Part shown: piece after piece, positions 19,697 to 35,818 of the stretch
Layout: every line of letters starts with the position of its first letter
How positions within the stretch are numbered: position 1 is the stretch's first letter
NCBI RefSeq assembly: GCF_004944975.1
Contig: NZ_SPQG01000020.1
Span: 1 to 35,818 of the forward strand
Origin: Halorhabdus amylolytica
GTDB taxonomy: Archaea; Halobacteriota; Halobacteria; Halobacteriales; Haloarculaceae
Reading direction: 5' to 3'
Length of the DNA: 35,818 nt
Notes under the pieces: model-generated
The model's database searches: none
What the model saw: the letters and a program-made list of their open reading frames with translations, nothing else
Told to the model about the DNA's origin: nothing
Program-made: the position numbers and the translations under genes

Positions 19697-21037
19697 ATGA
19701 GTATTCGATGGGTACATTTGGGTGGTTACGTGCAAGGGGTGATCGACTTCTCGGAGAGGGGACTGGACGGTGCGCCGCTCACGGCGACCGAAACCGACGG
19801 ACTGCTGGGACGTCCGTTGCTCGCAGACCGGCCGCTGGTGACGTATCTCCGGGCCGCCGAACAGCCGCAGTTCTGCCTGTGGAACCATCGAAACGGCGTC
19901 GTCGTGGAAGGAAGGCAAGCGTATCGCCCGGACCGGTGGCACGCTGGAGTGGCACTCTTGACCGACTGTCGGATCCTGTTTGCCGTCGGTCGGACGGATG
20001 GCGATCGGACGATCCCGGTCGGGCTCTCGGACGTCAGAGACGTCTCGATCGAGAACCGTCTGCTCGGAGAGACGTTACTCGTCGAGACAGCCGACACCAC
20101 CTATCGCTTTCCCTGCTGGGGGAACCTCGATCCCGTTCGGGAACGTGCCAGTCAACTCGTCGAGACCTGGCGGACGGCCGGGGATCACCTCGATCGGGCC
20201 CGACGGATACTCGATCGTCTCGAAGAACGTATCGGAAGGGGAGACGGTTCCGGGACCTGCTCACTTTTCGAGACCGTCGAGGACGAACTGGACACGGCCA
20301 GCGAGATTATCAGTTCGTCACCCGGCGCCGACGCCGTCCTGGGAGAGGAAATCACCACTGTTCGAAACGATCTGACCGCGTTGCGTCGGCAGGCCCACGC
20401 GACACGTGCTGATCACCTGTTCGAGCGGGCCGAGCGTCGATGGGATGACCGCAAGCTCGAAGCGGCCTTCGACGACCTCGAAGCGGCCAGGGACGCCTAT
20501 TCTCGGGCGATCGAAGTCGACGCCGAGAAGCCCTCTGACGAGGAACTTATCCAACGGCGCGATACTGTCCTCGCCGATCGCCGAAGACTCGCAAGTGCCC
20601 CTCTCGAAGCCGCTGAGTTTGCCCGTGAAGTCGCCGCCGCGACCGAGGATCCCGAAGCGGCGATCCGCTGGTGGAAGACGACAATGAATCGGTACGAAAT
20701 CGTATACACCCTGGACTGGGGTCGTGACAGACCCCGGTTCGACGTCGATCGGGAGAAGGCCCGGGACGCACTGGAAGCCGCCGTCCGGAACCTGGTGGAG
20801 GCTTACTGCCGAGGCGCATGTGAATACGCGAACGAGAACGTCGCCACCCACCGTTCGGACACCCAGACGCCCCCTGATCGGGCAACCGAATTACTCGATG
20901 GGGCTGACGCGCTGGCACGTGAACGTGTGCCTGATATGCGTGAGGACGTCAGATCCCTCCGGAATGACATCATTCCGGAGGAATCGACGACGGACGGGCG
21001 ACTGCCCGGATCAGGTGTCACTGCCGACGATCGATAG
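19697..21037 (+). CDS. PH-like/coiled-coil protein of unknown function
   Basis: 446 aa from MSIRWVHLG (19697); a GTG at 19730 (VQGVIDFSERG) is an alternative start. Residues about 40-150 have a PH-domain-like pattern of strands (VALLTDCRILFAVGR, IPVGLSDVRDVSIENRLLGETLLVETADTTYRFP). Long charged coiled coils follow (ARRILDRLEERIG, LFERAERRWDDRKLEAAFDDLEAARDAYSRA). No catalytic motif and no membrane segment are visible. It is divergent from the reductase gene and upstream of rpl10e. A cytoplasmic scaffold role is possible. Not further identifiable. Confidence 0.7.
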   Translation: MSIRWVHLGGYVQGVIDFSERGLDGAPLTATETDGLLGRPLLADRPLVTYLRAAEQPQFCLWNHRNGVVVEGRQAYRPDRWHAGVALLTDCRILFAVGRTDGDRTIPVGLSDVRDVSIENRLLGETLLVETADTTYRFPCWGNLDPVRERASQLVETWRTAGDHLDRARRILDRLEERIGRGDGSGTCSLFETVEDELDTASEIISSSPGADAVLGEEITTVRNDLTALRRQAHATRADHLFERAERRWDDRKLEAAFDDLEAARDAYSRAIEVDAEKPSDEELIQRRDTVLADRRRLASAPLEAAEFAREVAAATEDPEAAIRWWKTTMNRYEIVYTLDWGRDRPRFDVDREKARDALEAAVRNLVEAYCRGACEYANENVATHRSDTQTPPDRATELLDGADALARERVPDMREDVRSLRNDIIPEESTTDGRLPGSGVTADDR

Positions 21038-25599: not shown

Positions 25600-26210
25600 A
25601 GATTGATCCGACACATCGCCTCGATCGAGCTTCACGGGAAGGGACTACGTGCGTTGAATCCGCAGTTGACTGTCGAGGACAACCTCGAATACTGGGGTCG
25701 CATTATCGGACTGGATCGTGACGAGCGGACGGAGCGGATCGCTCGGACGAGTGAGTTCGCAGGGGTGACGGAATTACTCGATTGCAAGGCGACCGACCTG
25801 AGCCGTGGCCAGCGCCAGCGGACCATCGTCGCACGGTGTTACTCGGGGAGCCAACAGTGCTGTTCCTCGACGAACCGACGACCGGCCTCGACCCAACGGC
25901 GGCAAAGTCACTCAGGATGCAACTCGACGATCTGGCAGCGGAGGGCCGGACGCTTTGCTACTCGACGCACAACCGCTACGAAGCCGAGTTCCTCGCCGAC
26001 GAGTTGACGATCGTTCAGGACGGGGTCGTCCTCGCCAAGGGGCCGAACGAGGAGCTTCTCTCCCGGCTCAAAGAGGGCGACACCCGGGCGATCCACGTCG
26101 TTGCGGACGCTCATCAGGCGGACTTTGAATCGATCGGCGTTTCGTTGCTGGCGGTCGCAGTCGGGTGGGTCACTGTCCGACGGTGGTTGGACGTCAAGAA
26201 GCTCCTGTAA
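25600..26210 (+). pseudogene. Frameshifted ABC transporter ATPase fused to permease tail
   Basis: The first part reads LNPQLTVEDNLEYWGRIIGL and the ABC signature region TDLSRGQRQRTIVAR in the frame of 25603. At about 25836-25842 the frame breaks by one base, and LLGEPTVLFLDEPTTGLDP (Walker B) and YSTHNRYEAEF continue in the frame of 25782. The Walker A region is missing at the 5' side. At the 3' end the ATPase runs into LLAVAVGWVTVRRWLDVKKLL, which is the last membrane helix expected of an ABC-2 permease, so most of a downstream permease gene has been deleted. At least three lesions are therefore visible. No functional product is expected. Confidence 0.8.
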
Positions 26211-27338: not shown

Positions 27339-27390
27339 GGGCGAGGTGACGTCTCGCCCCTCCGTGCGGAGACTTTTGCCCCGCACGGAG
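27339..27390. repeat. Two strong hairpins inside the tnpB 3' end
   Basis: GGGCGAG (27339-27345) pairs with CTCGCCC (27353-27359), and CTCCGTGCGG (27360-27369) pairs perfectly with CCGCACGGAG (27381-27390). They lie in the part of tnpB that normally overlaps the guide-RNA scaffold, so RNA structure may be the reason. Confidence 0.5.
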
Positions 27391-27416
27391 TAGCCGAAAT
27401 CCGATGTTCTTCGCCG

Positions 27417-27473
27417 TAGCCAGATTCCGACGGAATCTGGCTGCCCGTCAGGTCGCGCGCGACCTGACGACCG
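27417..27473. repeat. 57-bp twin-palindrome insertion in tnpB
   Basis: Two perfect palindromes stand side by side: AGCCAGATTC/GAATCTGGCT (27418-27442) and CGTCAGGTCGC/GCGACCTGACG (27446-27469). Removing 57 bp restores tnpB codons DYNA-AKN exactly. CCG occurs at both ends, suggesting a short target duplication. Confidence 0.6.
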
Positions 27474-28640
27474 CGTTGTAGTCCGCGTTGACCTCGTAGC
27501 CGCACTTCTGGCAACGGAACTTCGATTGAGACGGACGATTCTCGTCCAGCGTCGTCCCGCACTTCGAGCAACGCTTGGACGTGTACGCCGGGTCTACCTG
27601 CGTGGCGTCGATACCCTCCGCCTCGGCTTTGTACGCCGTGTAGTCGTACAGGCGGCGGAACGCCCACGCATGGAACTTCTTTGCGCCCGGCAGCCGGTCG
27701 CGGATGTCCGTTAACTCCTCGAACGCTATCCGGTCGCACCCGTGCGCGACGGGTTCTTGGACGAGTGCTTTCGAGATGCGGTGTAGGTAGTCCTCTACCC
27801 ACCGTGTCTCTCGGTCGCCCATCCGTTCAATGGTTCGATGGGCTGATTCCGTGCCCGTCCGTTGAAGCTCGCCACGGACCCGTTCATACTCCCGGCGACG
27901 GTGGTTGAGGGAGTCGCCACTCCAGAACATCCCGGTTGACGTGACGGCTATCTGTTCGATACCGAGGTCAACGCCGAGGACTGTACTGTTCTCGGCGTCG
28001 CCTTCGTCCGGTATCTCTGACTCCACGTCGGCCTTCGTTCCGATGTGGAGGAAAAAGGTATCCGTCTCGTCGCGGTACTGGAGCGTCGCACCCGTCACTT
28101 CGTAGTCGTCGTCGCGGAGGTACTTCGTCTGCGGGTTGTCTCCCTCCGGCGGCAGGACGTATTCGGCTTCGATACGCCCGTTCACCGTGGAGAGATACGT
28201 GGTCGTCGTGGAACGTCGGACTCCGTTTCTCGTACCGGACAGCAGGGGTCGTAAAGTGTGGTTGTGACGCCTTCTTGCCGTTCTGCCACCGGGCGACGAC
28301 GCCTTTGATGGCTTCGGCGGCCCGGTTGCGTGCGGATTGGACGAGATTCGCTTGAAGCCGTGTCTGTTCGCGCACGTCGGAGTACGTCCGGTCGTGGAGT
28401 TTGCTTTTCGAGGTGGGCTTCGTCCTGCCATGCGTCTTGGACGACGTAGTTGCACGCCCACAGGTACTCCTCGACAGTGTCGTGGAGGAGAGTCGCGTCG
28501 CTGTCGTCCATATCGAGTTTGACGACGACCGTGCGACCCACCGCCGCCATACTTCATATGTAGCACCCCACATTCAGGTGAGTTACGTGTGGTGTGGGGA
28601 GTCGGTCGGCCACCGAACGGCGGTTGTTTCTCACCGTGTC

Positions 28641-28740
28641 GCGTTCCTCCCCGTCCCCAGAACGCGAAGCGTTCTGGTGTGCGAACGAGACGCGAAGCGT
28701 CTCGTCAACGCCGTGAACGGCGGGGTTTCCCGCTTGTATC
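28641..28740 (-). repeat. IS200/IS605-type end with a second 57-bp twin-palindrome insertion
   Basis: On the minus strand GGGAAACCCCGCCGT-TC-ACGGCG matches the orphan end at 35763-35788, and the rest of that motif, GGGGAGGAA, follows only after 57 extra bases (28652-28708). The extra piece holds two perfect palindromes, ACGAGACGC-gaa-GCGTCTCGT (28685-28705) and CCAGAACGC-gaa-GCGTTCTGG (28657-28677). CG is duplicated at the borders. Confidence 0.55.
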
Positions 28741-35750: not shown

Positions 35751-35762
35751 CTTTCCTCCGAG

Positions 35763-35796
35763 GGGGAAATCCCGCCGTTCACGGCGGGGAGGAAGC
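35763..35796 (+). mobile_element. Orphan IS200/IS605-type end (hairpin CCCGCCGT-TC-ACGGCGGG)
   Basis: A perfect 8-bp stem with a TC loop (35771-35788), followed by GGAGGAAG, is the usual 3' end/guide-RNA scaffold of haloarchaeal tnpB elements. No tnpB precedes it on this strand; the permease starts 20 bp away on the other strand. It is therefore a solo remnant or non-autonomous end. The window stops at 35818. Confidence 0.55.
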
Positions 35797-35818
35797 CGAT
35801 ACGATACTGTGCTACCGC

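Follow-up and report, generated by a model that had tools for sequence, protein, structure and literature searches.

Two short palindromic inserts interrupt IS200/IS605-type insertion sequences (IS) in the DNA of the haloarchaeon Halorhabdus amylolytica, and the question is what they are and what put them there. Both lie in a stretch of 35,818 nucleotides (contig NZ_SPQG01000020.1, positions 1 to 35,818), referred to below as the window. An earlier note on this DNA described them as 57-bp twin palindromes with duplicated borders and unrelated sequences, and proposed either a family of small palindromic insertions in which structure rather than sequence is kept or a structure linked to a guide RNA; it suggested searching haloarchaeal genomes for similar insertions and comparing empty with filled sites. 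By sequence comparison, the two inserts are divergent members of one twin-hairpin family.

The two inserts and their family

Insert 1 occupies positions 27415–27473 when both terminal CGs are counted, and the net insert of 57 bp corresponds to 27417–27473. It contains a first hairpin at 27418–27442 (AGCCAGATTCCG-A-CGGAATCTGGCT, perfect arms of 12 bp, loop of 1) and a second at 27446–27469 (CGTCAGGTCGCG/CGCGACCTGACG, perfect arms of 12 bp, loop of 0). Arms of this length are beyond chance, since in Markov sequence of the size of the window palindromes with 11-bp arms are expected 0.15 times and none with 12-bp arms was seen. Insert 2 (28652–28710, plus strand), also of 57 bp net, is a typical family member, CGTCCCCAGAACGCGAAGCGTTCTGGTGTGCGAACGAGACGCGAAGCGTCTCGTCAACG; its hairpin 1 (28657–28677) and hairpin 2 (28685–28705) both have perfect 9-bp arms and the loop GAA. 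The hairpin centres are 27.5 nt apart in insert 1 and 28 nt in insert 2. Both inserts are bordered by CG, at 27415–27416 and 27472–27473 in the first and at 28652–28653 and 28709–28710 in the second.

Copies of the family follow the common plan CG-TCCYCAGAA-tip-TTCTGR-TGKGCKRM-ACRAGA-tip-TCTYGT-SAACG, in which the feet (CGTCCYCAG… and …TSAACG) and the linker (TGKGC) are conserved, while the stem tips and loops vary. Two covariance models were built, R1 from 27 sequences including both window inserts, and R2, to avoid circularity, from sequences of other genomes only, with none from the source genome. R2 matches insert 2 with 69.3 bits (E 1e-21) and insert 1 with 37.9 bits (E 6e-11), which contradicts the claim that the two sequences are unrelated. 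The R2 score of insert 1, a divergent member resembling copies that carry the linker CTGCCCG (locus L055), is for the minus strand; the plus strand scores 34.0 bits, and the orientation of this insert is ambiguous, as the element is quasi-symmetric. What appeared at first as two families was resolved as two orientations of a single one.

The search of haloarchaeal genomes with R1 detected the element in 136 of 145 Halobacteria genomes and 55 of 58 genera, with at least 1,130 copies in total and a median of 5 per genome, the high counts being lower bounds. A search for the insert 2 linker, CTGGTGTGCGAACGAG, matched 84 of 292 Halobacteria genomes, representing 43 of 77 genera, whereas the reversed-pattern control matched none. 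The proposed family of miniature palindromic insertions is therefore real and far larger than two inserts. Its supposed preservation of structure instead of sequence applies to the stem tips and loops, but the feet, the linker and the terminal CG are kept in sequence.

The source genome itself carries 12 to 18 copies by the covariance models (E up to 0.001), some of these being one place matched on both strands. A copy at C1:335296-335352 shares the feet and linker of insert 2 and has different stem tips. At two other tnpB loci of this genome, L004 and L006, there are likewise paired hairpins whose centres lie exactly 28 apart.

In a phylum-wide sample, strong model matches were confined to Halobacteria, with weak matches in six other genomes (best 6.5e-6). 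The loci fetched after a linker scan of all GTDB species were haloarchaeal, except for seven bacterial loci and one from a metagenome-assembled genome labelled "Euryarchaeota archaeon". The seven bacterial matches were dismissed as chance, having neither hairpins nor model matches. The element is present on 59 haloarchaeal plasmids, where most of the rows listed fall under no annotated feature, and no record of the phage collection contained it.

Insertion into empty sites

The element is a true and precise insertion into sites that are found empty elsewhere, and the target CG ends up on both sides of it. Empty homologues could be aligned for 92 sites, both window sites among them; of these, 78 align without gaps within 8 bp of the junction, and one CG is retained in 60. 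For insert 1, the empty homologue lies in the tnpB gene of another genome (L090, 1988–2095, gapless), and for insert 2 it lies within the window itself, at 35761–35803. At both places the empty site is gapless and keeps one CG, which gives a net insert of exactly 57 bp each time. The size, the twin perfect palindromes and the CG at either border given in the earlier note all stand.

CG is present at the start of the element in 112 of 121 non-redundant sites and at its end in 117. These terminal CGs may have arisen by duplication of the target, or one may be the target CG and the other part of the element end, the sequences being compatible with either. The net insert length is mostly 55–57 bp, with a range of 51–60 bp irrespective of reading frame. 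An in-frame, protein-coding palindrome similar to the Rickettsia RPE was considered and rejected as the rule, given this disregard of frame and the stop codon added by insert 1.

The insertion sites are statistically more foldable than other CG sites. The mean folding energy of empty sites is −10.97 kcal/mol, versus −8.88 kcal/mol for other CG sites (p=6e-7) and −8.77 kcal/mol for the flanks (p=3e-7), and a perfect stem of at least 6 bp spans the junction in 27% of sites versus 14% of controls. In many cases the site is one arm of a palindrome at an IS605-type end, for example CCC^CG^CCGTGAACGGCGGGG or CCCACGGCTTTAGC^CG^TGGG. Further sites are in tnpB and, by visual inspection of the reading frames, in other transposase genes, some of them beside catalytic aspartate codons.

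Both window inserts have hosts of these kinds. Insert 1 lies in an IS605-type tnpB pseudogene (27381–28566, minus strand; PF07282 9.8e-19, PF01385 2e-9), near the C-terminus and after the ADYNA codons, where it introduces a TGA in translation; the N-terminal part of the pseudogene is in a different frame. Insertions at or beside the RuvC catalytic aspartate codons of tnpB (VLG|VDLG; ADYNA|AKN) were noted at L080, L090, L138, L140, L006 and window position 27415. Insert 2 splits the 5' arm of the near-terminal palindrome (CCC^CG^CCGTGAACGGCGGGG) of an IS605-type left end at 28649–28725, as defined by empty-site folding and alignment. The copy of this palindrome without an insert, at 35761–35803 on the minus strand, was located by blastn of the joined flanks. 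It represents a second IS605-type left end, and the window seemingly ends inside another IS of that kind.

Several arrangements of copies were also observed. A 19-nt module, CTGTATCCCCKCCCTACTG, in the left ends of tnpA-type IS has two flanking CGs, both of which are filled by the element in some genomes (L092, L101, L167, L168, L226). Abutting copies have one CG in common. All 10 of the 10 abutting pairs counted were joined 5' tag to 5' tag, with palindromic junctions such as TGGGGACGTCCTCA (L055, L057, L086, L092, L208), and genome G021 contains head-to-tail arrays with a single CG between copies. An intergenic haloarchaeal repeat with a long palindrome (CCACCTTTTTCGTCG ... AAAAACGTGGGCGAAAAAGG) is a frequent host of the element (L074, L148, L159, L177).

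Pairing of the stems

The two hairpins form a unit. In a search of the 145 genomes with hairpin 1, a second perfect hairpin followed within 36 nt in 61 of the 73 distinct sequences listed, versus 3.9% by chance, and 56 distinct second hairpins were found. The modal distance between the two centres is 28, and most exceptions have one mutated arm.

The stems change in sequence and stay paired. At the paired positions, 96.1% of cells are paired versus 78.8% after shuffling, the covariation value is 0.41 versus 0.11, and 74 stem changes are double-sided versus 2 that are one-sided. Watson–Crick pairs make up 97.4% of cells across 140 distinct copies, with 13 GT and 38 AC cells; 9 AC cells remain once the single pair not formed in half the family is excluded. 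An RNA under selection would favour G-U over A-C, which is not seen, and this points to a structure maintained as DNA rather than RNA. No match to the element was found in Rfam.

A pooled count of loop flips is unconvincing alone, as common loops such as GAA and TTC are mutually reverse complementary; a test restricted to 21 differences between copies identical except for one loop is convincing. In 7 of the 21 the loops differ by reverse complementation, versus 9% expected. Such flips fit a process in which an arm together with its loop would be copied from the other arm while the element is folded.

Relation to known elements

The conserved stretches of the element were not found in a related context in the literature searched, and no prior description was found. 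The closest elements in build are REPINs and CGTC-tagged REPs, both bacterial, while SMR-A and PATE of Haloquadratum come nearest to it in host and in choice of target.

REPINs (PMC3116915) share with the element two inverted hairpin units and a short spacer that act as a mobile unit, the lack of an internal transposase, and empty sites. REPIN units are rarely single, and here too the second hairpin follows at ~28 nt in the large majority of sequences. The element differs in being archaeal, CG-bounded and often located inside IS or transposase genes. It has two unlike hairpins with variable stems, and neither a GTAG tag nor a RAYT was seen. Whereas REPINs combine a GTAG head with a cognate RAYT, 45 of the 145 genomes have no detectable Y1 genes.

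CGTC-tagged REPs (PMC3733652), which include the Rickettsia RPE, have an unpaired CGTC tag, with TGTC and CCTC as variants, an 8–9-bp stem with a short loop, head-to-head pairs and no dedicated transposase, all of which are shared; most copies of the element have an unpaired CGTC ahead of hairpin 1. However, REP stems nearly always start with AT, complementary at positions 1–2, and have the tail CCA, while stems of the element start with C(C/T)AG or similar and lack CCA. These REPs are reported in bacteria only, and singletons occur among them.

SMR-A (PMC3119063) is haloarchaeal, lacks a transposase and inserts into IS605-type near-terminal palindromes, a habit the element shares in part. It is ~110 bp long, its copies are well conserved and no target duplication is reported for it; compared by description, the 57-bp element differs in length, and some overlap with SMR-A is possible. 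The 52-bp terminal-only form of PATE (PMC3119063) is haloarchaeal and non-coding, with ~50 bp and two palindromes or a fused one. PATE palindromes, though, resemble IS605 ends, whereas those of the element do not, and the element inserts into such ends; its feet are unlike the IS605 end palindromes at its insertion sites, the comparison covering those ends only. PATE shows no target duplication, while the element is bordered by CG at both ends where the empty site has a single CG, and these two may be the target plus the element end.

Mechanism and alternatives

The inserts are best explained, at a rough probability of 55%, as copies of a REPIN-like, non-autonomous and Halobacteria-specific mobile element, moved as folded single-stranded DNA by an enzyme acting in trans, its stems being rewritten in the process. 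The unit would be ~56–57 bp net, with two tandem hairpins ~28 nt apart at their centres, a short conserved linker and CG bounds. It would be cut next to CG, most likely by an HUH (Y1-type) transposase. During the single-stranded stage one hairpin arm may be copied from the other, by template switching or quasi-palindrome correction, which would produce fast but always paired changes of the stem tips as well as loop flips, and the enzyme would read only the feet, the linker and the ends. An HUH enzyme is favoured by analogy, because TnpA-REP systems likewise combine folded hairpins with a short tag next to the stem and cleavage at a dinucleotide. In these systems, the tag helps to select the dinucleotide, and one known substrate has an 8-bp perfect stem and a 3-nt loop (PMC8266576). 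A further proposal, that the family replicates as a folded shape with stems and loops rewritten arm from arm, and that it may restrain TnpB transposons through their ends and catalytic codons, is tentative.

Several observations weigh against this explanation. The hairpin-1 search gave no case of cargo between hairpin 1 and hairpin 2, and no transposase with the element at its ends was present among the fetched loci. An autonomous parent, sought as either hairpin on its own or on the two sides of a gene, was not found. Y1 genes were undetected in the 45 genomes mentioned above, 20 of which carry at least 5 copies, and genome G086 has 11 copies and neither Y1 nor TnpB. Such copy-rich genomes indicate that the element can persist without a resident IS605 transposase. 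Dependence on the Y1 TnpA was rejected, its correlation with copy number being weak (rho 0.34), with clear exceptions. The palindrome enrichment of the sites (27% versus 14%, arm of at least 6) is moderate, and many sites share one IS context, hence the insertions are not fully independent. Finally, a recombinase using a 2-bp core would account for the CG duplication equally well.

Such a recombinase, similar to the IS607 serine recombinase, is the main rival, although an unlikely one; CG would be the crossover core and the hairpins accessory binding sites. CG on both sides with one CG in the empty site is the outcome of a staggered 2-bp core, and a palindromic core permits both orientations, as observed, but these systems need no pair of strictly paired, sequence-free hairpins, and no such recombinase gene was found associated with the element, no test aimed at one having been made.

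It is also improbable that the element is what remains of a haloarchaeal IS200/IS605 transposon reduced to its termini, in other words a PATE with fused left- and right-end hairpins moved by the TnpA of the IS. The weak correlation with Y1 genes and the known 52-bp PATEs with two near-terminal palindromes in Haloquadratum (PMC3119063) are in line with this origin. Yet the hairpins of the element are unlike the IS605 end palindromes that serve as its targets, no IS with ends of this type was found among the fetched loci, and many copies persist in genomes without Y1.

A small mobile repeat (SMR) of the Haloquadratum type, which would make this a class already seen though not this family, is quite unlikely. 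SMR-A has terminal inverted repeats and no transposase and inserts into near-terminal palindromes of IS605 and PATE, but its ~110 bp, its highly conserved copies and the absence of a reported target duplication differ from the variable 57-bp element, the two being compared by description only.

An RNA structure, either the guide-RNA link of the earlier note or another RNA function, is very improbable. Guide RNAs of the TnpB family reside near the 3' end of tnpB, and insert 1 is near the 3' end of such a gene. However, the element is missing from homologous tnpB genes and present at many scattered, unrelated sites, and with the empty tnpB sites, the lack of an Rfam match and the absence of a G-U excess, RNA function as a general explanation is refuted.

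Chance palindromes or local template-switch products of no shared origin, which might be thought of as short hairpins are common in GC-rich DNA, are refuted by feet, linker and ends kept in more than 1,000 copies, with the reversed control at 0 or nearly 0, and have a negligible probability.

Other features of the window

A palindrome with 12-bp arms at 20956–20981, CCTCCGGAATGACATCATTCCGGAGG, falls outside the twin-hairpin family. Short open reading frames at 25603–26210 have weak similarity to ABC transporters in more than one frame and are probably a decayed ABC transporter gene.

Implications

The twin-hairpin family was previously unannotated and is present in nearly all Halobacteria sampled, and it deserves masking in genome annotation. 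Elements of the REP/REPIN type are described from bacteria only in the literature consulted, and the element is an abundant archaeal counterpart without an obvious transposase. Its hundreds of copies with covarying stems and a two-base target constitute a natural experiment on which bases a mobilizing enzyme needs in a single-stranded DNA hairpin and which may vary freely. Disruption of tnpB genes and IS ends by the element, seen across Halobacteria, is relevant to the question of why pseudogenes are so common among the TnpB genes of haloarchaea.
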